Of a DNA stretch of 57,447 bases, positions 2,370 through 14,499 are shown one piece after another. The notes beneath the pieces were generated by a model. That model did no database searches and was not told the origin of the DNA. It worked only from the letters and a program-made list of their open reading frames with translations. The translations under genes were made by a program, and so were the position numbers. Origin of the DNA: Holophagaceae bacterium (lineage in GTDB: Bacteria > Acidobacteriota > Holophagae > Holophagales > Holophagaceae); assembly GCA_023257195.1 (NCBI GenBank), contig JALRCU010000026.1:1-57447 (forward strand), in the 5' to 3' direction. Within the stretch, counting starts at the first letter, position 1. Each line of letters opens with the position of its first letter.

Positions 2370-2399
2370 TTGGAATAAAAAGCTTGTTTTTTGTATACT
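2370..2399 (+). promoter_or_regulatory. Predicted sigma-70 promoter of the arginine operon
   Basis: TTGGAA at 2370-2375 and TATACT at 2394-2399 are separated by 18 bases. They match the sigma-70 consensus at 4/6 and 5/6 positions. Transcription would begin near 2406, just before the repeated TTATGC blocks. The site lies in the argR-argD divergent gap. Confidence 0.55.
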
Positions 2400-2416
2400 A
2401 CAAAACCATTCTTAAT

Positions 2417-2442
2417 TATGCAATATTATGCGTTTTTATGCA
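2417..2442 (+). promoter_or_regulatory. Candidate ArgR operator with three TATGC blocks phased at 10 bp
   Basis: TATGC recurs at 2417, 2427 and 2437, exactly one helical turn apart. Read as palindromes, TGCAA-TATT-ATGCG (2419-2432) and TGCGT-TTTT-ATGCA (2429-2442) resemble the ARG-box layout TGAAT-WWWW-ATTCA at about 6/10 and 7/10 half-site positions. The element sits between the predicted transcription start and the argD start codon, where ArgR binding would block transcription. Assignment to ArgR is an inference from position and partial similarity. Confidence 0.45.
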
Positions 2443-2449
2443 AGGCCTT

Positions 2450-3580
2450 ATGATTCCCTCCTTATTTCCCACTTATGCCCCCTACCCTCTCGTCATGGTT
2501 CGAGGCGAGGGCGACATTATTTTTGATGATGCAGGGCAGCCCTGGATCGATCTTTACGGTGGGCACTGCGTTTGTTCCACCGGTCACAGCCATCCCAAAG
2601 TGGTGGAAGCTATCCATCGTCAGTCGAAGCAGTTAATTTTTTACTCCACCGCAGGTGACCTCGCCATACGTCGAGAAGCTTCGGATCGTCTCGTGGCTTT
2701 TTCGGGAATGGATACTATCTTTTTTTGTAATTCTGGTGCTGAAGCCAATGAAAATGCTTTGAAACTCGCATTTCAAATCACGGGACGTAAAGCTTTTGGA
2801 AGTTTTCAAGGCGGTTGGCATGGACGCACCTTTTTAGCTATGACGGTAACCGATGATCGAAAAATTACTGAGGCTTTTGAGTCGATTTTTCCCGAACATT
2901 ATCAATTCCCTTTTGGGGATATTCAATCATTAAGAGTTTTGGATTTTTCTAATTTAGCCTGCGTGATTGTCGAACCGATTCAGAGCATGTCGGGTATTCG
3001 AACGGCGTCTTCAGAATGGTTTGCTGTATTGAGGCAAAAATGTACCGAGGCTGGGTGTTTGTTGATATTTGATGAAATCCAAACAGGTATTGGCCGTTTG
3101 GGTCAACCTTTTGCAAGTCAGTATTTTCAGGTTCGTCCGGATTTCATCACCAGTGCAAAAGGCCTTGCCTCTGGCATCCCCATTGGAGCCCTCATGATGA
3201 CCGAGACCGCAGCTCAGCATGTCAAACCCCATATGCTTGGAAGTACTTTTGGTGGGGGTCCCATCGCCTGTGCTGCGCTGATCGCAACGCTAGATATTAT
3301 TCAAAATGAAAAACTTATGGAACACGTGACACGTATGCATACGTATTTAACAAATGCACTTAAAAATACATTGATTGACGAGGTCAAAGGTATTGGCCTT
3401 CTCCTGGGTCTCAAATCGAATAGGGCGTCCGAACTCAAGGAATATTTATTATCTCAAAGGATTCTTGTCGGAGGATCATCCGATCCTCATGTTTTGCGCC
3501 TTATGCCACCTTTGAATGTCCGAGAAAGTTCATTGGAAATACTAGTAGAGCATATACGAACTTTAGGGGGTAAATCATGA
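2450..3580 (+). CDS. argD: Acyl-ornithine aminotransferase (ArgD-type, class III PLP aminotransferase)
   Basis: This PLP-dependent enzyme interconverts N-acylglutamate semialdehyde and N-acylornithine using glutamate. Visible family features are GGHCVCSTGHSHPKV near the N terminus, FCNSGAEANENALKLA (phosphate-binding region), IFDEIQTGIGRLG (the Asp that contacts the pyridine nitrogen) and ITSAKGLASGIPIGA with the Schiff-base Lys. The reading frame is open further upstream to a TTG at 2384. The start at ATG 2450 was chosen because AAGG lies four bases before it and the protein then begins at the usual LFPTYAP segment, giving 376 residues. ATG 2438 is the alternative, but it falls inside the putative operator. 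It overlaps argF' by ATGA. With the succinyl-type carbamoyltransferase next door, the physiological substrate is probably N-succinylornithine. Confidence 0.93.
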   Translation: MIPSLFPTYAPYPLVMVRGEGDIIFDDAGQPWIDLYGGHCVCSTGHSHPKVVEAIHRQSKQLIFYSTAGDLAIRREASDRLVAFSGMDTIFFCNSGAEANENALKLAFQITGRKAFGSFQGGWHGRTFLAMTVTDDRKITEAFESIFPEHYQFPFGDIQSLRVLDFSNLACVIVEPIQSMSGIRTASSEWFAVLRQKCTEAGCLLIFDEIQTGIGRLGQPFASQYFQVRPDFITSAKGLASGIPIGALMMTETAAQHVKPHMLGSTFGGGPIACAALIATLDIIQNEKLMEHVTRMHTYLTNALKNTLIDEVKGIGLLLGLKSNRASELKEYLLSQRILVGGSSDPHVLRLMPPLNVRESSLEILVEHIRTLGGKS

Positions 3581-4560
3581 GACATTTCACGCATCTCAAA
3601 GACTTAACTCCCGAAGAAATCCAATCCATATTACGTCAAGCCCGAATCTGGAAAACGGTTCCTCCTGATCATATTTTCTTAAATAAGATTCTGGCTATGG
3701 TCTTTTTTAATCCTTCTTTGCGGACCCGCCTAAGTTTTGAAGCTGCCATGCTTCGTCATGGAGGCCATGCCATTGCATTAGAGGTTGGATCAGGCTCGTG
3801 GAATCTGGAAATTGAATCAGGCGCCATTATGAATAGTAATAAACCCGAACATGTTCGAGAAGCCGTGCCTGTGATAAGTCGATTAGCAGATATTGTTGGA
3901 GTTCGGTCTTTCTCTCTAGGCCTATCTCACGAAGAGGATGATCGAGATTCTGTCATTCATGCTTTCAAATCACTTAGTAGTGTTCCGGTCATCAGCATGG
4001 AAAGTGCTCGTGAGCATCCTTGCCAAGGATTAGCAGATATGCTCACCATTCAAGAGCACTTTGAAGAGTTGAGACCCAAAGTTACTTTGGCGTGGGCTCC
4101 TCATATCAAATCTCTACCCAAAGCAGTCCCTCATTCTTTTCTGCTTTCCGCTTCAGCGATGGGCTATGACATCACAGTGGCTCATCCCCCTGGCTATGAA
4201 TTGGCAACTTCTGTAATTAAGGAAGCTCAGAACCTATCCCAAAGATCCGGAAGTCGGATTCGATTTAGTCATAATCTTGACTCCGCTATTCAAGATACAC
4301 AGGTCATCTACGCTAAAGCTTGGGGGCCATCCTCTCCGCTGGCCGCTCCCCTGGATACCCTTACATCCTGGATGACGCATGAGCGACATCTCAAACTAGC
4401 TGATCCGAAATCAATTTTTATTCACTGTCTGCCTGTTAGAAGAAATGTGGAGGTGCACGACTCTATCTTAGACAGTCGCCAATGCAAAGTGATTGATGAG
4501 GCAGAGAATCGATTCCACATCCAGCGGGCCCTAATTCATTTCTTACTATCACATTCTTAA
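3577..4560 (+). CDS. argF': N-succinylornithine carbamoyltransferase (ArgF' type)
   Basis: This 327-residue transcarbamylase transfers the carbamoyl group to an N-acylated ornithine. The phosphate loop is FFNPSLRTRLSF (residues 43-54). Trp75 lies in GSGSWNLE, HPCQGLADMLTIQE supplies carbamoyl-phosphate contacts, and HCLPVRRN lies near the C terminus. Residues 85-92 read MNSNKPEH, placing Pro at position 90. In the AOTCase/SOTCase family the equivalent residue is Glu92 in Xanthomonas acetylornithine transcarbamylase and Pro90 in Bacteroides succinylornithine transcarbamylase, and it decides between acetyl and succinyl substrates. The segments WAPHIKSLPKAVPHSF and HPPGYEL also follow the Bacteroides enzyme. 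It is not an ordinary ornithine carbamoyltransferase. It overlaps argD by four bases. Substrate is inferred from residues, not measured. Confidence 0.88.
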   Translation: MRHFTHLKDLTPEEIQSILRQARIWKTVPPDHIFLNKILAMVFFNPSLRTRLSFEAAMLRHGGHAIALEVGSGSWNLEIESGAIMNSNKPEHVREAVPVISRLADIVGVRSFSLGLSHEEDDRDSVIHAFKSLSSVPVISMESAREHPCQGLADMLTIQEHFEELRPKVTLAWAPHIKSLPKAVPHSFLLSASAMGYDITVAHPPGYELATSVIKEAQNLSQRSGSRIRFSHNLDSAIQDTQVIYAKAWGPSSPLAAPLDTLTSWMTHERHLKLADPKSIFIHCLPVRRNVEVHDSILDSRQCKVIDEAENRFHIQRALIHFLLSHS

Positions 4561-4571
4561 AGGCTCAGTTC

Positions 4572-5483
4572 ATGTTCGATAAAAATCCGTATCAGTTACT
4601 CAAATTTTCAGCCGCATACGGACGTCGGTTTCGGCATAAGATTTTTGTTATTAAACTAAGTGGTGACATCCTAACAGACCCAAAAACACGGGGTGCGCTC
4701 TGCGAGCAGATCGCATTACTTTGGAGTTTTTCTATTCGCATTATTCTGGTCCATGGAGGAGGAGTTGAATTAGATTTAGAATGTCAGCGCCTCAATATCC
4801 CCATTCATAAAGTGGCAGGTCGTCGAATTACAAGCCCCGAGGTTCTGCAAGCCGCTTTTAAAGTCTTCACCGAGCAAGTCCAGCCTTTAGTTCTCCAAAA
4901 TCTTAAGTCGTTAGGCATCACGGCAATCGGCCTCACCGGATTAGATGGGCAAATGATTGAGGCTCATCAACGACCACCCTTGGCCATCAAAGATGACGGT
5001 GATGCCGAGGAGAAGATGGTTGATTTTGGATGGGTTGGGGACGTTGATCGTGTGAACCCAGAAATTCTTTTTCATCTTTTAGACCAAGATATAATTCCCG
5101 TGGTCGCTCCGATTACAGGTAATCGGCATGGTGATATGTTCAATACCAATGCGGATACAATCGCATCCGAAATTGCTTGTGCGGTTCAAGCAGAGAAACT
5201 TTTTTTTCTACTTTCTGTCCCCGGCTTGCTTCGAGATATTCATAATCACTCTTCTTTAATTTCTCAAATTACTTTTCATGAATTAGATAACCTCGAGGTA
5301 GACGGGGTTATCTCAGGAGGAATGCGCCCCAAAATTCAAGCTATTAAACGCGCTTTAGGTTTGGGTGTCAGCGCAATTCATTTGGTTTCAGGCGTACTTC
5401 CTGATGCTTTATTGACTGAAGTCTTCACAAATGAAGGCAGCGGGACGATGATACTAGGTCCCGTGAGTCAAGGGGCATCATGA
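4572..5483 (+). CDS. argB: N-acylglutamate kinase (ArgB-type amino-acid kinase)
   Basis: This 303-residue amino-acid kinase family protein phosphorylates the gamma-carboxyl of N-acetyl- or N-succinylglutamate. The fold's landmarks are VIKLSGDIL (ATP phosphate contact Lys), VHGGGVELD (glycine-rich loop), GRRITSPEVLQ (acylglutamate binding), FNTNADTIASEIA and ISGGMRPKIQA (nucleotide-binding segment). The VDFGWVGDVDRV segment is shared with Bacteroidetes- and Deinococcus-like ArgB proteins, while classical ArgB has VGEVK. It follows argF' by 11 bases and overlaps the downstream deacylase by ATGATG. Because the carbamoyltransferase looks succinyl-specific, N-succinylglutamate is the likely substrate. 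The possibility of acetyl use is not excluded. Confidence 0.9.
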   Translation: MFDKNPYQLLKFSAAYGRRFRHKIFVIKLSGDILTDPKTRGALCEQIALLWSFSIRIILVHGGGVELDLECQRLNIPIHKVAGRRITSPEVLQAAFKVFTEQVQPLVLQNLKSLGITAIGLTGLDGQMIEAHQRPPLAIKDDGDAEEKMVDFGWVGDVDRVNPEILFHLLDQDIIPVVAPITGNRHGDMFNTNADTIASEIACAVQAEKLFFLLSVPGLLRDIHNHSSLISQITFHELDNLEVDGVISGGMRPKIQAIKRALGLGVSAIHLVSGVLPDALLTEVFTNEGSGTMILGPVSQGAS

Positions 5484-6562
5484 TGAGTCTCTATCCTGGA
5501 ATTTCTTCCGCAGAGTTTCTTAAGGCCATTGTTGGAACTCCCAGTCTTTCTGGACAAGAGAAGTCCTTGGCCGATGCCCTGGAAGCTTTTTTAAGTATTC
5601 AAGGATTTAGTCCTCAGCGCGCAGGTAACAATATTTGGTTCACCCTGGGATCTGTTTCCGGACCTACACTGTTGCTTAATTCGCATATCGATACCGTTCC
5701 TCCCAATGCTAATTGGGTTTCAGACCCCTTTAAGCCAGAGTGGAGAGAATCCCGATTAACAGGTCTAGGCGCTAACGATGCCAAGGGAGCTGTTACCGCC
5801 ATTATCTTTGCTGCCCTACGTCTCAAGCAGGACCATTTTCAATCAGGAAGAGTTTTAGTAGCTTTATCCTGCGAGGAAGAGACGGGAGGCCAAGGACTGG
5901 GAACGATCATCTCTCAATTAGGTCCCCTCGAGGCAGCTGTAGTCGGAGAACCAACCGGTCTTCGCGTAGTCTCATCGCAGCGTGGACTTTTGATTCTTAA
6001 ATGTACGGCTCGAGGCATGAGCGGACACGTTGCAAACGCTCAAATGTTAGGCACGGAAAACGCCATCGCCAAAGCCTCTCGGGATATTGTAAAAATTGAG
6101 CAGTTGGTTCTCCCTTCTCACCCTACCTTGGGAATGATGAAAGCACATGTAACCCAAATCCAAGGTGGGCTCAAGCGAAATCAGATTCCTGATCATTGTG
6201 AATTCTATTTGGATATTCGTACCAACCCAGAATCTGATCACGTGGCCTTGACTCACCTAATTCAAAGTCACCTTGAAAGCGAAGTTACAATCCATTCAGA
6301 TCGATATCTGCCTAAGTGGACTAATCCCCAACATCCTATCGTCATGGCGGCCCTCAAAGCAGCCAAGAAAGAGGCTCCCACTAGTTCGGCAACCACCTCT
6401 GATTGGGCATTTTTAAAAGATATTCCTGCAGTCAAGGTAGGACCCGGTGACACCTTTAGAAGTCATCGGCCGGATGAATACCTTTTACTTAGTGAACTGG
6501 AAGAAGGAATTTGTTTCTACCGAGATACCGTTCTTCATTTCTTCGAAAAGGCATCCGTATGA
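5480..6562 (+). CDS. argE: M20 family N-acyl-citrulline/ornithine deacylase (ArgE-type)
   Basis: This 360-residue zinc hydrolase of the M20/ArgE-DapE family has metal and catalytic motifs in order: NSHIDTVPP (His and catalytic Asp), LGANDAKGAV (bridging Asp), SCEEETGGQ (catalytic Glu and metal Glu), GEPTG (metal residue) and a C-terminal FRSHRPDEY (metal His). In this pathway the transcarbamylated product is N-acylcitrulline. The enzyme's likely job is therefore to remove the acyl group, probably succinyl, from citrulline before argG acts. It starts at ATG 5480 inside the argB stop (a second Met at 5483 is equally possible) and overlaps argH by ATGA. Confidence 0.88.
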   Translation: MMSLYPGISSAEFLKAIVGTPSLSGQEKSLADALEAFLSIQGFSPQRAGNNIWFTLGSVSGPTLLLNSHIDTVPPNANWVSDPFKPEWRESRLTGLGANDAKGAVTAIIFAALRLKQDHFQSGRVLVALSCEEETGGQGLGTIISQLGPLEAAVVGEPTGLRVVSSQRGLLILKCTARGMSGHVANAQMLGTENAIAKASRDIVKIEQLVLPSHPTLGMMKAHVTQIQGGLKRNQIPDHCEFYLDIRTNPESDHVALTHLIQSHLESEVTIHSDRYLPKWTNPQHPIVMAALKAAKKEAPTSSATTSDWAFLKDIPAVKVGPGDTFRSHRPDEYLLLSELEEGICFYRDTVLHFFEKASV

Positions 6563-7914
6563 CACCTCAACCCTTATGGTCCAAGAAAGGTCTTTTAACG
6601 AATGAACAAATTTCGAATTTTACAGTTGGTGAAGATCCACTCATTGATCCTAATTTTTTATCCTTTGATTGTTGGGGAACCATGGCGCATGTTCGTCAAC
6701 TTCATCATCTTGGGCACTTAAATCAGCAAGAAACCCGTGAGATTCTGACATTATTGGGGGAATTCGTTAATCAATTCGCAGTTCATCTCCCAGATCTAAA
6801 GGGTTATGAAGATGGGCATTCCTTTCTTGAAATTCAATTGACGGAAAAACTAGGAGAGACGGGTAAAAAGATACACTTAGGACGATCCCGTAATGATCAG
6901 GTTTTATTGGCTGAGCGATTATGGATGCGCCATTCGCTTCTCGAACTTCATCACGATCTTTATGTGTTAGTCCAACAATTATCTTCCCTCTCAGATCGCT
7001 ATGCATCAGCACTGATGCCGGGGTACACCCATCAAAGAAAGGCGATGCCCACCACCTTTGGTTTTTGGGTAGCCTCCTACGCAGAAGGCCTCACTGAGGT
7101 GCTGTCTATGGGTAAAGATTTATATCGTCAACTTAATCGCTCACCCCTCGGTGCTGCAGCAGGGTTTGGTAGCCCGATCCCCCTCGATCGACCTTTTGTA
7201 GCAGAATTATTAGGTTTTGATGAGGTCCAGCGGAATCCTTTGAATGTGATGTCAAGCCGAGGTCGCTGCCAACTGGATTTCTTACATTGGATCAACCAGA
7301 TGACCCATATTCTTGAGAAACTTTTTATTGATTTGTCTATTTTTTCACAAGAAGAGTATCAATTTGTTTCGCTACCTGACGCTTTTACGACCGGCAGCAG
7401 CATCATGCCACAAAAAAGAAACCCGGATGTTTTAGAATTGGCTTGTGGGCGTTGTTCTGAGATTCGAGGCCTCCGAATAACCCTAGAGAACATCTCGACT
7501 GGTCTCTCCTCAAGTTATCATCGCCATAGTCAGCTACAGAAATTTTATTTAGTTCGTTCTTTTGGATTAGCTCAAGCCATCGTTCAGATTACTCCCGAAC
7601 TTATAAAACATTTACAAGTTCACGACGTTCGAATGAAAAACGCTTGTAGCCCGGATCTTTTTGCAACCCATGAGACCTATCAATTAGTTCAAAAGGGTCT
7701 GCCCTTTAGGGAGGCCTATCAACAGGTTGGTGACCAAGTTTTAAACGGGACCTTTAAGGCACAAGCACCAGAGAAGTATCTTCACCAGATTCATCTTGAC
7801 TTCAGTCATGAGCGTCAGCTTTGCAATCAACAGTTAGACACCTTACATTCCTGGAACAATGGGACCCGGCATCATCTCGAAATCCTCTTCACTCAACTCT
7901 TGGAGTGCGTATGA
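6559..7914 (+). CDS. argH: Argininosuccinate lyase
   Basis: Splits argininosuccinate into arginine and fumarate, the last step of arginine synthesis. The 451-residue protein shows the fumarase/aspartase superfamily segments: a GRSRNDQVLLAERLW-type substrate site, GYTHQRKAMPTTFG, and the signature GSSIMPQKRNPDVLEL with the flexible-loop catalytic Ser. The frame is open upstream to 6511. ATG 6559 was chosen because it forms the ATGA overlap seen throughout this operon and gives a normal N terminus (MTPQPLWSKKG). The stop overlaps argG in the same way. Confidence 0.97.
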   Translation: MTPQPLWSKKGLLTNEQISNFTVGEDPLIDPNFLSFDCWGTMAHVRQLHHLGHLNQQETREILTLLGEFVNQFAVHLPDLKGYEDGHSFLEIQLTEKLGETGKKIHLGRSRNDQVLLAERLWMRHSLLELHHDLYVLVQQLSSLSDRYASALMPGYTHQRKAMPTTFGFWVASYAEGLTEVLSMGKDLYRQLNRSPLGAAAGFGSPIPLDRPFVAELLGFDEVQRNPLNVMSSRGRCQLDFLHWINQMTHILEKLFIDLSIFSQEEYQFVSLPDAFTTGSSIMPQKRNPDVLELACGRCSEIRGLRITLENISTGLSSSYHRHSQLQKFYLVRSFGLAQAIVQITPELIKHLQVHDVRMKNACSPDLFATHETYQLVQKGLPFREAYQQVGDQVLNGTFKAQAPEKYLHQIHLDFSHERQLCNQQLDTLHSWNNGTRHHLEILFTQLLECV

Positions 7915-9119
7915 GCTCACCTAAGGTACTGCTGGCATTCTCGGGCGGACTAGACACGACTTTTTGCTTGGTTTATCTCAAAGAGCAAGGTTACGAAGTT
8001 CATACTGCAACGGTCGATACAGGGGGATTTTCTCCGGAAGAAATTGAACGTATTCAAAATCTATCTCATTCTCTAGGTGCCAAGTCTCACACGCTTATCA
8101 ATGCTCAAAATGATCTCTTTGAGCATTATTTAAAATTTCTTATTTTCGGAAATGTACTTCGCGGCCAGGTGTATCCCCTCTCTGTTTCAGCTGAGCGCGT
8201 ATGTCAGGCTCGCAGTCTGGTCACTTTTGCCAAGAAACTTGGAGTGGGCGCTCTCGCGCATGGGTCAACGGGATCGGGCAACGATCAAGTTCGCTTTGAT
8301 GTAGCATTCAGAACCCTGTATCCGGAAGCCACTATCCATACCCCCATCAGAGAGCTCTCTCTATCTCGACAAGAAGAGATTTCATACCTGGCTCAGCATG
8401 GCGTCAATATTCCAGCTAAAACAGGAACTTATTCTATTAATGAAGGTATGTGGGGAATCAGTATTGGAGGTAAAGAAACCTTATCGTCGTGGGATTTTCT
8501 TCCAGAAAGTGCTTTTCCCAAAGGGGCTATTTCGAGACAACAACCCGCACAAGAACTACATATCACTTTTGAGAAAGGTGTGCCCACCCAAGTGAATCAT
8601 CAAGCAATGAATCCTGTTCAATTGATAAAGACCTTGAATAGTTTAGGATCCTCTTTGGGACTCGGGCGCGGTACTCATCTAGGAGAAACCATATTAGGTA
8701 TTAAGGGGCGGATTAGTTTTGAAGCACCGGCTGCCTATCTTTTGATTACGGCCCATCGTGAACTTGAAAAACTCGTCTTGAGTGGAAAGCAACTTTTCTG
8801 GAAAGAGACTTTGGGAAATCTTTATGGCTCACTTCTCCACGAGGGATATTTTTTAGATCCACTCAGCCGCGATCTTGAATCTTTTTTAGGCCATAGCCAA
8901 GAGCGTGTTACGGGAGAAGTACGTTTAAAAATTGAGCCATTGGCTTTTTCAGTTTTAGGCTGTCGGTCGCCTTTTTCACTGATGAATTCTCAGTTGGCCC
9001 AGTACGGAGAGAGTAACGCACTTTGGTCACATACGGATGCTTTAGGATTTACTAAAATCTTTGGGGTTTCTCAGCAACTTCATCATCATGTAGAAACTCG
9101 ACATAATCAGGAGTCTTAA
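7911..9119 (+). CDS. argG: Argininosuccinate synthase
   Basis: Condenses citrulline and aspartate with ATP. The 402-residue protein starts with the pyrophosphatase-type ATP loop LAFSGGLDTTF and contains AHGSTGSGNDQVRFDVAF (citrulline/aspartate site) and SINEGMWGISIGGKE, all standard for ArgG. ATG 7911 overlaps the argH stop by ATGA, so the longer frame beginning at 7821 is not needed. It ends in TAATG with the next gene, implying translational coupling. Sequence style resembles the Bacteroidetes-type ArgG more than the E. coli enzyme (judged by eye). Confidence 0.96.
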   Translation: MSSPKVLLAFSGGLDTTFCLVYLKEQGYEVHTATVDTGGFSPEEIERIQNLSHSLGAKSHTLINAQNDLFEHYLKFLIFGNVLRGQVYPLSVSAERVCQARSLVTFAKKLGVGALAHGSTGSGNDQVRFDVAFRTLYPEATIHTPIRELSLSRQEEISYLAQHGVNIPAKTGTYSINEGMWGISIGGKETLSSWDFLPESAFPKGAISRQQPAQELHITFEKGVPTQVNHQAMNPVQLIKTLNSLGSSLGLGRGTHLGETILGIKGRISFEAPAAYLLITAHRELEKLVLSGKQLFWKETLGNLYGSLLHEGYFLDPLSRDLESFLGHSQERVTGEVRLKIEPLAFSVLGCRSPFSLMNSQLAQYGESNALWSHTDALGFTKIFGVSQQLHHHVETRHNQES

Positions 9120-10171
9120 TGAGAATTCACGTTGATAAAATTGGCTCGGTCACACGCAATTTGAAACTTAGTCGATCACTAACGCTTTCGGATCAGTTTT
9201 ATATAGAACCGGGTTCGGTCATAGCTTGCCGTATACATGGGGAGAAATCCACATACAATCAACTCGAAGATCCCCATGGACGACTGGTTACCCTTCATCA
9301 AGGTGATCTCGTCGTAGGCGCCTTAGGCCATCGCAATGCGCTCCATGGTTATGAAGGAGTAATGCCTACACAGTTGAGGGTCGGAGATACCCTTCATATG
9401 TTGAATATGGGGGGCGTCATGGGACTTTGCCAATCGTATAACCCAGATGTTGGGGCTCCGTTTCGACTGGAGGTACTTGGGCAAGTAATGCAATTCCCAG
9501 AATTTCAATCCCGCATAGGACAACCTGCCCACATTTCAATGGGCGCACTCCCACTGAGGGATCCATCGGTGCGATGTCCGGTGGTCTATATTGCTGGAAC
9601 GTGTATGAATGCAGGAAAAACTGCCGCTTGCTGTGCTGTGATTCGGAATTTTTCACAACGGGGGCTTAGAATTGGTGGAGTTAAACTCACCGGCGTTTCA
9701 CTTCAGCGAGATATCCTGAGCATGCGGGACTATGGGGCATCTGAAATTTTAGACTTTACTGACGCGGGCATTGTATGTACTTCAAAAGATACTGCGGCTG
9801 CAACGGCAAAAACCTTATTAACGGCAATGTCTGAAATGGATGTTGATCTCATCGTAGCAGAAACTGGCGATGGCATTTTGGGTGAGTACGGAGTTCAGTC
9901 AATTCTCAGCGATCCCGATCTTAATAGATTAAGTTCGGCTTTTATTCTTTGCGCTAACGACCCCGTTGGCGCCTTGGGAGGTATCGATACTCTCCAAAAA
10001 CAGTTTGGAATTAAGGTCGATATCGTAGCCGGTCCGGTCACGGATAACCGAGTTGGGGAGCGATTTGTCGAATCGCTTCAAATACCGGCTCGAAATGCAA
10101 GAAGTAATCCCAAAGCCCTTGGCGATCTTGTATTTAATATTTGCTATCCAACTGCTCAGGTAGCTTCATGA
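9119..10171 (+). CDS. P-loop protein (DUF1611/BioD-like) embedded in the arginine operon
   Basis: This 350-residue protein is of unproven function. Residues 1-150 form an N-terminal domain without a motif I can name. Residues 153-350 form a P-loop NTPase-like domain with Walker A GTCMNAGKT at 160-168, followed by a dethiobiotin-synthetase-like series GGVKLTGVSL, FTDAGIVCTS and VAETGDGILGEYG. I associate this layout with DUF1611-type proteins. One member of that family, DgcN, is reported to N-acetylate D-glutamate. It is coupled to argG by TAATG and to argC by ATGA, so it is almost certainly part of the pathway. No argA or argJ is visible in the operon, so glutamate N-acylation is a reasonable but untested role. 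A regulatory or metabolite-channelling ATPase is the alternative. Confidence 0.6.
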   Translation: MRIHVDKIGSVTRNLKLSRSLTLSDQFYIEPGSVIACRIHGEKSTYNQLEDPHGRLVTLHQGDLVVGALGHRNALHGYEGVMPTQLRVGDTLHMLNMGGVMGLCQSYNPDVGAPFRLEVLGQVMQFPEFQSRIGQPAHISMGALPLRDPSVRCPVVYIAGTCMNAGKTAACCAVIRNFSQRGLRIGGVKLTGVSLQRDILSMRDYGASEILDFTDAGIVCTSKDTAAATAKTLLTAMSEMDVDLIVAETGDGILGEYGVQSILSDPDLNRLSSAFILCANDPVGALGGIDTLQKQFGIKVDIVAGPVTDNRVGERFVESLQIPARNARSNPKALGDLVFNICYPTAQVAS

Positions 10172-11157
10172 AGTCAATCATCCTTGGGGCTTCGGGTTAC
10201 GGTGGGGGAGAACTCTTTCGTTGGCTCTCTCAACATCCCACCATTGAATCTATCGAAGGTACGTCACGGACGAATGCAGGAAAACCTGTCTCATCCATTC
10301 ACCCGAATCTCTTAGGAATTGTGGATCAATTATTTTTAGAAACCATAGATTGGGCTCAATATAAAAACGAGAAAGCATTAGTAGTCTTTGCCAGTATGCC
10401 CCATGGTGAATTTAAAGGCCAGTATCCTTCGCTTGAAGATGAATGGAAAAGGCTTGGGCTATCAGAACGTATTCTTTTAATCGATTTATCACATGACTTT
10501 AGAATTCATCCAGGTTTCGTATATGGGCTTTCGGAAATTAATGCGGATCAGATTAGGGGATCTCGTAGAATTTCTAACCCCGGTTGCTTTGCAACTGCTC
10601 TCCAATTAGGAATGCTACCGCTGGCTCCGTATAGTCCTGATCAAATTTTTGTGAGCGCGGTAACAGGATCGAGTGGATCCGGCGCCTCTGCAAGTTCAAC
10701 AACCCACCATCCCACACGATCGAATGATTTTAGAGCTTATAAAATGCTCTCCCATCAACATGAGGAAGAAGTACTTCACAGTTGTGCTCAGAAAGGATGG
10801 AAGCCTAGGCTCTCTTTTGTTCCTCATTCCTCGTCTTTGGTCCGAGGTATTTTTGCCACTATTCAGCTTACTCAGAACGACTCTATGAAAGATCAAGACA
10901 TTCCAGGGATCTTTAGGGATTTTTATAAAGATAAATTTTTTATACGCTATGTTGAGGGAACGCCCCGTATTCTCAGCACCGTGGGTTCAAATTTTGTAGA
11001 CCTTAGCGTCATTACTCAAAACGATAAGGTGTTGATTATGGTCGCTCTTGATAATCTAGGTAAAGGCATGGCCGCCCAAGCTATTCAGAATATGAATCTT
11101 GCCTTGGGATTGCCTGAGTGGACAGGCCTTCGTCAAGCCGGGCCCTACCCTCTTTGA
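10168..11157 (+). CDS. argC: N-acyl-gamma-glutamyl-phosphate reductase
   Basis: This 329-residue NADPH-dependent reductase makes N-acylglutamate semialdehyde. It has the Rossmann start ILGASGYGGGELFRWL, the catalytic-Cys segment ISNPGCFATALQLG, the substrate loop HHPTRSNDFRAYKML and FVPHSSSLVRGIFATI. The position of argC at the end of the operon, after the P-loop gene, differs from the usual argC-first order. ATG 10168 overlaps the upstream stop by ATGA; the frame's earlier in-frame start lies inside the upstream gene. Confidence 0.95.
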   Translation: MKSIILGASGYGGGELFRWLSQHPTIESIEGTSRTNAGKPVSSIHPNLLGIVDQLFLETIDWAQYKNEKALVVFASMPHGEFKGQYPSLEDEWKRLGLSERILLIDLSHDFRIHPGFVYGLSEINADQIRGSRRISNPGCFATALQLGMLPLAPYSPDQIFVSAVTGSSGSGASASSTTHHPTRSNDFRAYKMLSHQHEEEVLHSCAQKGWKPRLSFVPHSSSLVRGIFATIQLTQNDSMKDQDIPGIFRDFYKDKFFIRYVEGTPRILSTVGSNFVDLSVITQNDKVLIMVALDNLGKGMAAQAIQNMNLALGLPEWTGLRQAGPYPL

Positions 11158-11177: not shown

Positions 11178-12545
11178 ATGAATGAGCAATTACTAACGCG
11201 ACAAAGTCTTAAGGCTTTTGCAGAATCTCAACGAACTACTTTTGAAAAAGAGCTTAAGACCTTGGTAGAAATCCCAAGCATCAGCGCGGACCCCACCAAA
11301 GATCAAGATATTCAGCGCTGCGCTCAGGCCGCCAAGAGTCTCTTTGAGCGATACGGGGGACATGCAGAAATATTAGATACTCCCGGTAACCCTCTTATCC
11401 ACGGTTGGTTCAGTAAGGACTTTGATAAAACGATAACGGTTTATAACCATATGGATGTGCAACCTGCAAACGAGCCCGAGTGGACTGCCGAGCCTTTTGA
11501 ATTCACCATCGAAGGAGATACATACCGAGGTCGCGGGAGCACGGATGATAAAGGCCCTGCCCTAAGTGCTTTTTTTGGTGCGGTTGCGGCACATCGTGCT
11601 GGTGTTCCCATTAATATGCATTTCTTATGGGAACTCGAGGAAGAAATTGGGTCCCCTAACTTTGAGAAAGGCTTGAAAAAACATAAGGACAAATTAAAAA
11701 CAGATGCCATCGTAGTCAGCGATACGGTTTGGATTACCCGAGGTAAGCCAAGCACACCGGCTGGATTGCGGGGCCTAAAAGGTTTTCGATTAACTTTAGA
11801 AACGGCGGATCATGATCTTCACAGCGGCGTAGTAGGAGGGGCGGCTCGCAACCCTATCAGTGAATTAATTACCCTAGTAGGACAAATGGTGGACGGGAAC
11901 ACGGGTCGCGTTTTGATCCCCGGATTCTATGATGAGGTGATTCCCCCTTCCGCTGAAGAGTTGGAGGGGTGGCGAGTAAGTGGATTCACCACTGAAACTT
12001 TTATGAAAGACCATCAACTCAAAGGAATTCGAACCCAAAATCCAGTTGAGATTTTAACTTCGGTTTGGGGAATGCCGACCATGGAGGTTCATGGTGTAGT
12101 TGGAGGTTACACGGGGCCGGGCATTAAGAGTTCGGTAGCACCGAGAGCTGAAATTAAACTTTCCTGTCGTTTGGTGCCTGCGATGGATGAGTCAACCACC
12201 ATGGCCCGTATTCATGCATTTGTAAAATCAAAAAACCCTGACGTCGTCATTCACGAGGAACACGGACTTGCTCCTTTCAAAGGACATGTCGCGGGTCCTT
12301 ATGCCCAAGCGATTCGAGAAGCCTATCAGTTTGCCTTTGGTGAAACCTGTGTTTTCACTCGAGAGGGTGGAAGTATTGGTGCCGTGAAAACCATGGAAGA
12401 CGTTCTAGGGTCAGAGGTTTATTTCCTTGGACTTTCTCTTCCAAGCCACGGTTACCATGCCCCCAACGAAAATTATGATTGGGAGCAGGCAGGTGGTGGC
12501 ATGGCTGCCTTTGCGCATTACTTCGAAACCGTTTCTAAAATGTAG
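11178..12545 (+). CDS. M20 family dipeptidase
   Basis: This 455-residue metallopeptidase has the carnosinase/PepV-like M20 layout: NHMDVQPANEPEW (metal His and catalytic Asp), GRGSTDDKGPALS (bridging Asp), LWELEEEIGSP (catalytic and metal Glu), a lid domain with GLRGLKGFRLTLETADHDLHSG, and a C-terminal PSHGYHAPNE metal site. The start at 11178 follows GGGAGACAGC. The gene is 20 bases after argC, so it may be read from the arginine operon and release amino acids from peptides. No substrate can be assigned. Confidence 0.9.
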   Translation: MNEQLLTRQSLKAFAESQRTTFEKELKTLVEIPSISADPTKDQDIQRCAQAAKSLFERYGGHAEILDTPGNPLIHGWFSKDFDKTITVYNHMDVQPANEPEWTAEPFEFTIEGDTYRGRGSTDDKGPALSAFFGAVAAHRAGVPINMHFLWELEEEIGSPNFEKGLKKHKDKLKTDAIVVSDTVWITRGKPSTPAGLRGLKGFRLTLETADHDLHSGVVGGAARNPISELITLVGQMVDGNTGRVLIPGFYDEVIPPSAEELEGWRVSGFTTETFMKDHQLKGIRTQNPVEILTSVWGMPTMEVHGVVGGYTGPGIKSSVAPRAEIKLSCRLVPAMDESTTMARIHAFVKSKNPDVVIHEEHGLAPFKGHVAGPYAQAIREAYQFAFGETCVFTREGGSIGAVKTMEDVLGSEVYFLGLSLPSHGYHAPNENYDWEQAGGGMAAFAHYFETVSKM

Positions 12546-12564
12546 ATTCTCATAGGACTTGTGC

Positions 12565-14499
12565 GTGTCTGATCTTGAGAGTCTGTCCTCAGAATCGCGT
12601 CGTTTCTATCCTTCGGATGTATTCCAAAGAACTTCAAATCTATCGCGCCAAACACACACGCTTCTAATTAATCAATTCAAAGAAAACCGCCTGGGGACTT
12701 GGGGGCGTCTAGCGCGAGAAGAGCTCCTTTGGGATACCGATTTCCAAACGATTTATAGTGGAACGTTTAAAGATCCTCGTTGGTTCGAGGATGGTTATCT
12801 CAATGCATCCGTCCAATGTTTAGATCGATGGATCCACACCCCCACCGCCCAAAAGACAGCACTGATCTTTGAGGGTGAGCCGGGCGATCAGCAAAGTCTC
12901 ACTTATCAAGATCTATTCATGCAAGTGAATCAGCTGGCCGCCACACTTCGCAACTTGGGCATTCAAAAAGGGGATCGAGTGGCTATTTATCTCCCGCTGA
13001 TACCCGAAATGATCATTACCGTGTTAGCGTGCGCACGCGTGGGGGCCACTCATTCAGTCGTGTTTGCAGGCTTTTCTGCTGAATCACTCGCCAATAGAAT
13101 TAATGATGCAGGTGCCCGATTACTCATTACTGCGGATGGCGGATGGCGTAAAGGTGAGGCCCTACCGCTTAAAAATATCTCAGATCAAGCGATAGCACAG
13201 TCGCCCACTATCGAGAAGGTTATCGTCGTTCAACGAACAGGGCAAACGGTCTCAATGGATCCCCAACGAGATCATTGGTGGTCAGATCTTTTAACCAAAG
13301 CCGATTTATCTAAGAGCTATCCAGAATCCGTCTCCGCTGAACATCCTTTATTTTTGCTGTACACATCGGGGTCAACTGGAAAACCTAAGGGGATACAGCA
13401 CGGGACAGCGGGTTATCTTTTATGGGCGAAGCTGACCACTCGATGGGTGCTTGATTTAAAACCTAGCGATGTATATTGGTGTACGGCGGATGTAGGTTGG
13501 ATCACAGGCCATAGTTATGTTATTTACGGGCCCCTTCAAGAGGGCGGAACGATTTTTATCTATGAAGGTAATCCGGTTCACCCAAAACCGGACCGTTTTT
13601 GGTCACTCATTGAAAAATATCGGATCTCTATTTTTTATACGGCACCAACGGCGATTCGAACTTTTATTCGGCACGGTAAGGATTACCTTAAAAAACATGA
13701 TTTGTCCTCATTGAGGCTGTTGGGATCCGTAGGTGAGCCGATTAACCCCGAAGCTTGGCTTTGGTACTACCAAGAAGTTGGCGGGGGTCGATGTCCGATT
13801 GTCGATACGTGGTGGCAAACCGAAACAGGTGGAATGATGATTGCTCCAATACCAGGGGTTCACACCACCATTCCAGGCAGTGCTATTCAGCCCCTACCCG
13901 GCATTGAAATCGACATTCAAGACCGTGATGGCCATTCTCAAGAGTCTGGATTCCTCGTGATCACGTCAAGTTGGCCCTCTCAACTCAGAGGAATTTGGGG
14001 CGATCATGAGCGATATCAGAAGACCTATCATGACGAAATAAAAGGGGTTTATTTTTCCGGCGATGGAGCTCGTCGTGATAGCGAGGGAAATATTTGGCTC
14101 ATGGGTCGTGTCGATGATGTCCTCAATGTTTCAGGACATCGACTGGGAACCGCTGAAATTGAAAGTGCAATTGTAGCCCATCCCTGTGTCGCGGAAGCAG
14201 CGGTCGTGGGTCGACCCGATGCAATTAAAGGTGAGGGGATTGTTGCATTCATAACCCTCAAATCAGGAATGACTACTACCGAAGAAGAGTTAAAGGCCCA
14301 TGTCACACGAGAAATTGGAGCCTTAGCTCGTCCAGACGAAATTCGCTTTGCAGAAGGGCTTCCCAAAACACGGAGTGGGAAGATTATGCGGCGCTTACTA
14401 AGGGATTTAGCCCGAGGAGAAGACTCTCATCAAGATACCAGCACCCTTGAAGATCTTAGAGTGGTTGAGAAACTGCGAAAGGATGATGCTGAAGAATGA
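12565..14499 (+). CDS. acs: Acetyl-coenzyme A synthetase (AMP-forming)
   Basis: Makes acetyl-CoA from acetate, ATP and CoA through an acetyl-adenylate. The protein of about 644 residues has the AMP-binding signature YTSGSTGKPKGI, the acetyl-pocket segment DVGWITGHSYV, DTWWQTETGGMMIAP, and the C-terminal hinge and catalytic-Lys segment PKTRSGKIMRRLLR. That Lys is the residue acetylated for regulation in other bacteria. GTG 12565 is preferred over TTG 12559 because AGGA ends seven bases upstream of the GTG. It lies 19 bases after the dipeptidase on the same strand and ends tail-to-tail with the purine phosphorylase. Confidence 0.96.
   Translation: MSDLESLSSESRRFYPSDVFQRTSNLSRQTHTLLINQFKENRLGTWGRLAREELLWDTDFQTIYSGTFKDPRWFEDGYLNASVQCLDRWIHTPTAQKTALIFEGEPGDQQSLTYQDLFMQVNQLAATLRNLGIQKGDRVAIYLPLIPEMIITVLACARVGATHSVVFAGFSAESLANRINDAGARLLITADGGWRKGEALPLKNISDQAIAQSPTIEKVIVVQRTGQTVSMDPQRDHWWSDLLTKADLSKSYPESVSAEHPLFLLYTSGSTGKPKGIQHGTAGYLLWAKLTTRWVLDLKPSDVYWCTADVGWITGHSYVIYGPLQEGGTIFIYEGNPVHPKPDRFWSLIEKYRISIFYTAPTAIRTFIRHGKDYLKKHDLSSLRLLGSVGEPINPEAWLWYYQEVGGGRCPIVDTWWQTETGGMMIAPIPGVHTTIPGSAIQPLPGIEIDIQDRDGHSQESGFLVITSSWPSQLRGIWGDHERYQKTYHDEIKGVYFSGDGARRDSEGNIWLMGRVDDVLNVSGHRLGTAEIESAIVAHPCVAEAAVVGRPDAIKGEGIVAFITLKSGMTTTEEELKAHVTREIGALARPDEIRFAEGLPKTRSGKIMRRLLRDLARGEDSHQDTSTLEDLRVVEKLRKDDAEE

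Follow-up and report, generated by a model that had tools for sequence, protein, structure and literature searches.

A P-loop protein encoded in the arginine operon of Acidobacteriota is a candidate for the missing glutamate N-acylation step

Gene organization of the arginine operon

The window, a 57,447-nucleotide stretch of DNA from a Holophagaceae bacterium (assembly GCA_023257195.1, contig JALRCU010000026.1), carries an arginine operon with the gene order argD, AOTCase-like gene, argB, argE/dapE-like gene, argH, argG, P-loop gene and argC on the forward strand, and argR divergent upstream on the complementary strand. The arginine repressor gene argR (bp 1935 to 2348) was recognised by PF01316/PF02863. 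For argD (bp 2384 to 3580), the N-acylornithine aminotransferase model TIGR00707 was the best match, below its cut-off, and the true start may be further in. It is followed by the gene for a knotted N-acylornithine transcarbamylase (bp 3577 to 4560; NF003384 over cut-off) with the succinyl-type residue Pro90, and by argB, encoding N-acylglutamate kinase (bp 4572 to 5483; TIGR00761 over cut-off), in which AA_kinase was the sole Pfam match over cut-off and there is no GNAT domain. The argE/dapE-like gene (bp 5480 to 6562) encodes an M20 deacylase (PF01546; TIGR01910 at 141.9 bits, below cut-off). The argininosuccinate lyase gene argH (bp 6559 to 7914) matched PF00206 and scored 266.8 bits with TIGR00838 (cut-off 279.5), and the argininosuccinate synthase gene argG (bp 7911 to 9119) matched TIGR00032 over cut-off. 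The last gene, argC (bp 10168 to 11157), encodes N-acyl-gamma-glutamyl-phosphate reductase (TIGR01850, 277.7 bits, over cut-off). Downstream of argC, bp 11178 to 14499 contain M20 dipeptidase-like and acetyl-CoA synthetase-like genes that are kept in close relatives (L005, L006); L038, a locus from a larger genome in this family, also has the M20 dipeptidase-like gene 3' of argC.

Between argG and argC lies an open reading frame with an ATG start (bp 9119 to 10171, forward strand) encoding a 350 aa two-domain P-loop protein, the candidate for forming N-acylglutamate (here N-succinylglutamate). A reading made from the sequence only had described this gene as translationally coupled on both sides in an operon with no argA, argJ or GNAT-like gene, and both descriptions hold. 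The gene overlaps argG at TAATG (bp 9117 to 9121; TAA at 9117-9119, ATG at 9119-9121), and its stop overlaps the start of argC at ATGA (bp 10168 to 10171). Four GNAT genes are found elsewhere in the genome.

The first step of arginine synthesis in the source genome

The source genome is streamlined, totaling 1,195,406 bases in 56 contigs at 97% completeness, and appears to belong to the streamlined Holophagaceae genus UBA12189/Acidiparvus. A PF01960 search of this genome did not find argJ. No full-length ArgA was found over cut-off, the single match being ArgB itself, and no match to short GNAT ArgA was obtained. The four PF00583 GNATs comprise a SAT-like protein, RimI and two others. One of the genome's own GNATs (L002) was weighed as a possible ArgA and not retained. 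Thus an argA, argJ or GNAT glutamate acyltransferase elsewhere in the same genome, which the earlier reading had named as the finding that would count against it, was not found.

In the Acidiparvus study, 61 of 66 MAGs were credited with a complete arginine pathway including N-acetylglutamate synthase, which counts against the proposal made here; other Holophagaceae were reported without N-acetylglutamate synthase, independently of our analysis and in agreement with it (PMC11561045). Our guess is that the count in Acidiparvus came from an N-acetylglutamate synthase model matching ArgB, as happened in our own ArgA search.

One alternative is that an unrecognised GNAT elsewhere in the genome carries out the first step, and that the P-loop protein is an accessory factor such as a regulator, a channelling subunit or a nucleotide-sensing subunit. 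The presence of four GNATs in the source genome is consistent with this, but ArgA is the best match for none of the four, and the GNAT with a faint ArgA match has no close copy in complete genomes carrying the P-loop gene (for example G087) or in other families. Such a factor would also not be expected to give the complete exclusion of argJ described below. We consider this explanation unlikely.

Distribution of the P-loop gene across Acidobacteriota

Matches to the P-loop protein were found in 113 of 396 Acidobacteriota genomes and split into an arginine type (101 of the 396 genomes, in 19 families) and a sister type with 26-34% identity. The arginine-type family is defined here by full-length two-domain similarity and an argC gene directly downstream, both of which the window protein shows. 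In 75 of 78 arginine-type loci, chosen by sequence and not by context, argC lies directly downstream on the same strand; two of the remaining three reach the end of the contig or locus, and one has argC 1.5 kb off. Upstream of the P-loop gene, argG, argR or argH was found in 71 of the 78 loci. This conservation across the phylum, together with the position directly upstream of argC, places the observation far above chance. The identities between pairs of P-loop proteins track those of ArgB, ArgC, ArgD, ArgG and the transcarbamylase (r 0.69-0.84).

The gene argJ is present in 144 of the 396 genomes but in none of the 101 arginine-type carriers, where 36.7 co-occurrences would be expected. At the family level the P-loop gene occurs in 19 families and argJ in 30, with zero shared where 6.6 are expected. 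Because the genomes share ancestry, the exclusion does not tally independent events: the hypergeometric value of 1e-24 ignores relatedness and is not to be read as a probability, and the family-level figure is 8e-5, with families still not fully independent. No ArgA over cut-off was found in 72 genomes. Strong matches to short ArgA (E < 1e-27) were restricted to argJ carriers and two f10 genomes (G023 and G084), which carry GNAT ArgA, and there were none among 40 carriers of the P-loop gene. The refuting pattern named in the earlier reading, in which homologues would mostly lie away from arginine genes, was not seen. Together, the phyletic exclusion and the gene context strongly support the earlier suggestion that the P-loop gene fills the argA/argJ gap.

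Genomes without the P-loop gene

Among 80 genomes with neither the P-loop gene nor argJ, about 60 have no true argC. The relatives G284, G292 and G124, which are without a true argC, are also without the P-loop gene. This bears on a second alternative, that the protein catalyses some other arginine-linked reaction while N-acylglutamate or acylornithine is imported or salvaged. In its favour, distant homologues occur in unrelated clusters, one kind with an ABC exporter and a hydrolase and one a plasmid cluster that includes a PEP mutase-family gene, so these homologues probably act on other substrates. The joint absence of argC and the P-loop gene in these relatives argues against it, as does the window operon, which, carbamoyl phosphate supply aside, encodes every step but the first. 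We regard another reaction as quite unlikely.

In four tested loci with neither the P-loop gene nor argJ (G005, G366, G064 and G330), LysX lies beside argC, and the gene order of G006, G010, G032 and G190 points to a similar arrangement there. G064 has no P-loop homologue, and its ArgB is of the Xanthomonas NAGS/K type. Its locus L114 (G064:C82), which combines this 438 aa ArgB with a transcarbamylase whose specificity residue is Glu, offers a natural acetyl-route contrast. In Acidobacteriota clusters of the LysX type, an EgtC-like class II amidotransferase-type protein (L102:9964-10602 and L105:8834-9553; TIGR03442 below cut-off) is encoded between argC/lysY and the argB/argD side, and might act on a LysW conjugate.

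Five genomes (G141, G149, G173, G371 and G131) have an arginine operon in which neither the P-loop gene (profile search included), argJ nor a recognisable ArgA was found. The first four belong to one genus in f22 and are 95-98% complete. Synteny with carriers from that genus shows the gene cleanly missing between argR and argC, while argC, argD, the transcarbamylase gene and argB are kept (L098-L101). This clean absence means that either another route exists there or the pathway is failing. These four exceptions and G131 argue most strongly against a need for the P-loop gene in every genome that has the operon, and retention of the operon without the gene is what an accessory factor would allow. 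Weak ArgA-like GNATs of the f22 genomes were considered as a substitute and turned out to be present in a carrier as well. When the GNATs of G141 and G149 were set against those of three carriers, several candidates were left and no clear ArgA. Open reading frames of 181 and 203 aa between the transcarbamylase gene and argB (L098/L101) had no family match and were not acetyltransferase-like.

Structure and conserved residues

The P-loop protein was confidently modelled with AlphaFold2 as two domains (pLDDT 94.5, pTM 0.91). The N-terminal domain, residues 1-148 (bp 9119 to 9562), is beta-rich with a pLDDT of 93.7, and the second is a SIMIBI-type P-loop domain. Foldseek with the full model retrieved SRP GTPases, BioD and HypB, sharing the P-loop fold only. 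The N-terminal domain alone gave no PDB match by Foldseek (best E 1.5), and PDB sequence searches with the P-loop protein returned nothing useful. Invariant residues of the N-terminal domain are Y46, E50, R72, L95, N96, G98 and G99. In the Walker A motif, GTCMNAGKT at residues 160-168 (bp 9596 to 9622), G160, M163, G166, K167 and T168 are invariant in 47 of 47 sequences, as are E248, G250, D251 and G252 of the E248-x-G-D-G motif at residues 248-252 (bp 9860 to 9874). In the same 47 sequences Lys189 (bp 9683 to 9685) is invariant, and was paired with a conserved Lys of BioD by profile alignment with hhalign; Asp198, Asp215 and the Walker A motif as a whole (GTCMNxGKT) are invariant or nearly so.

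The acyl group

The transcarbamylase of the window has Pro90 where the wild-type Xanthomonas AOTCase (3kzc) has Glu (E92), and its best PDB match is a chain of 3l04 with Pro at that position. Substitutions at this specificity position switch which substrate is preferred, succinyl substrates being favoured by S, P, A or V (PMC7311316). With NF003384 over cut-off and Pro90, the window enzyme classes as an N-succinylornithine transcarbamylase. Among carriers of the P-loop gene, position 90 is A, P, S, V, T or I and never Glu, T and I being outside the residue rule; the single Glu is that of L114, in the genome without the P-loop gene. The acyl group in the source organism is thus predicted to be most likely succinyl rather than acetyl. 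The sequence-only reading had left the product as either N-succinyl- or N-acetylglutamate, and Pro90 points to the former in the source organism. Succinyl use cannot be generalised, since families f21, f53, f61 and f64 carry the P-loop gene and apparently rely on transcarbamylases that score only as ordinary ornithine transcarbamylase.

Proposed reaction

We put at roughly three in four the probability that the P-loop protein is the enzyme of the first committed step in arginine synthesis, acylating the amino group of L-glutamate, here likely with a succinyl group, in place of ArgA or ArgJ. It would then be a non-orthologous substitute for the enzymes of a known step. We infer the reaction itself, the acyl donor and glutamate as the acceptor: the N-acylglutamate-forming role is reached by elimination and by the exclusion with argJ and ArgA, and N-succinylglutamate in the source organism by Pro90 of the neighbouring transcarbamylase. 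The candidate enzyme would place an acyl group, most likely succinyl, on L-glutamate, and the resulting N-succinylglutamate would pass through ArgB, ArgC, ArgD, the succinyl-type transcarbamylase, the M20 deacylase, ArgG and ArgH. The donor may be succinate, activated with ATP to an acyl phosphate in the manner of BioD, or it may be succinyl-CoA, at about even odds.

The earlier reading had proposed an acyltransferase. Its N-acylglutamate-forming role is supported, but whether the acyl group would come by transfer from acyl-CoA or by an ATP-dependent ligase stands about even. As a ligase, the protein would join an acid to glutamate with ATP through an acyl phosphate. The canonical GxxxxGKT with invariant T168, the BioD-aligned Lys189 and the invariant E248-x-G-D-G favour this form, as do the BioD and CobB/CobQ models among the weak library matches and the GKM or GKR found in place of GKT in DUF1611/DgcN proteins of the same phylum. 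Conserved residues alone, however, do not show ATP hydrolysis, and DgcN, the only P-loop relative known to us that acylates glutamate, is classed as an N-acetyltransferase (NF041892). We give the ligase form somewhat less than an even chance.

As a transferase, the protein would be a DgcN-like acyl-CoA:glutamate N-acyltransferase whose P-loop holds the phosphates of CoA. The P-loop domain of DgcN (DUF1611), named N-acetyltransferase DgcN by NCBI, is distantly related, the Acidobacteriota DgcN adjoins a DgcA-like gene, and the known ArgA enzymes use acyl-CoA. Against this, only 86 columns around the P-loop align with DUF1611 (hhalign probability 75%), the N-terminal domain is unaligned and the Walker A motif differs. 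We give the transferase form a slightly lower chance than the ligase form. The intact Walker A motif and Lys189 give a slight lean to ATP-dependent ligation. The proposal in its fullest form, a family of P-loop ligases that converts succinate, glutamate and ATP to N-succinyl-L-glutamate and has replaced ArgA/ArgJ across much of the Acidobacteriota, is somewhat doubtful.

If the main proposal is true, it fills a hole in a central amino-acid pathway for roughly one in four of the Acidobacteriota sampled, among them the Holophagaceae reported without N-acetylglutamate synthase, and would correct auxotrophy predictions. It would also add another unrelated protein fold at the first arginine step, and an ATP-dependent ligase would open arginine synthesis by a new chemistry.

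Comparison with known systems

The P-loop protein scores above cut-off with no Pfam or NCBIfam family, and no description of such a protein was found in the open-licence literature. The resemblance to DUF1611/DgcN proposed earlier does not amount to membership. PF07755 (DUF1611) scored 16 bits where the cut-off is 25, the lowest E among 30 members was 4.8e-4, there was no NF041892 match, and about 37-86 columns of the P-loop match weakly. DgcN shares a distant P-loop domain and glutamate N-acylation with the proposed enzyme, but differs in its N-terminal domain, its Walker A motif and its DgcA neighbours, arginine genes being the neighbours in 75 of the 78 P-loop loci. The two true DUF1611/DgcN-like genes of Acidobacteriota that were examined adjoin epimerase/racemase genes (L143, L144; DgcA-like in L143), and DUF1611 also occurs in the arginine-type carriers G008, G063, G219 and G318.

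BioD and CobB/CobQ share the SIMIBI-type P-loop, an active-site Lys and ATP-dependent C-N bond formation, but only about 33 profile columns align, they have no N-terminal beta domain, and they belong to another pathway. BioD was defined as a single domain of about 220 aa with TIGR00347 above cut-off; the P-loop protein has two domains in 350 aa and no TIGR00347 match (best of family E 0.0011). The MobB models were also below cut-off (PF03205, 25.2 against 26.6 bits; TIGR00176, 23.3 against 76.2 bits).

The sister family (A2 set) has the same two-domain architecture over its full length (hhalign E 8e-67), and none of the sister-type loci examined is in an arginine operon. Its members (L083-L094, L007 and the plasmids L160, L161 and L163) are annotated as DUF1611 or dethiobiotin synthase, come from Acidobacteriota and Alphaproteobacteria, and often adjoin an ABC exporter with an alpha/beta hydrolase gene or an ATP-grasp gene. 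Plasmid matches are all distant, under 30% identity. On a Priestia megaterium plasmid (NZ_CP085446.1; L162:2730-11418) a distant homologue lies with two ATP-grasp genes and genes for ornithine carbamoyltransferase, TPP-enzyme subunits, an M20 peptidase, an LLM oxidoreductase and a PEP mutase-family protein, an arrangement suggestive of an uncharacterised cluster for phosphonate-type biosynthesis.

The ornithine/glutamate acetyltransferase ArgJ, which also recycles the acyl group, carries out in other Acidobacteriota families the entry step proposed for the P-loop protein and is of an unrelated family, with no PF01960 match in the P-loop protein. ArgA and short GNAT ArgA likewise open arginine synthesis by acylating glutamate, but their fold is unrelated, with no GNAT match (TIGR01890/NF005840) in the P-loop protein, and they were not found in the tested carriers. 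The Bacteroidota N-succinylglutamate synthase BT3761 and its homologue Cabys_1732 are GNAT proteins, which sets them apart from the P-loop protein. They resemble it in predicted product and in the succinylated pathway downstream, GapMind having placed BT3761 as the entry enzyme of the succinylated arginine route in Bacteroidota (PMC7311316). Cabys_1732 was reported only from Bacteroidota and Caldithrix (PMC5317091); if our reading is correct, the succinylated arginine route extends beyond Bacteroidota.
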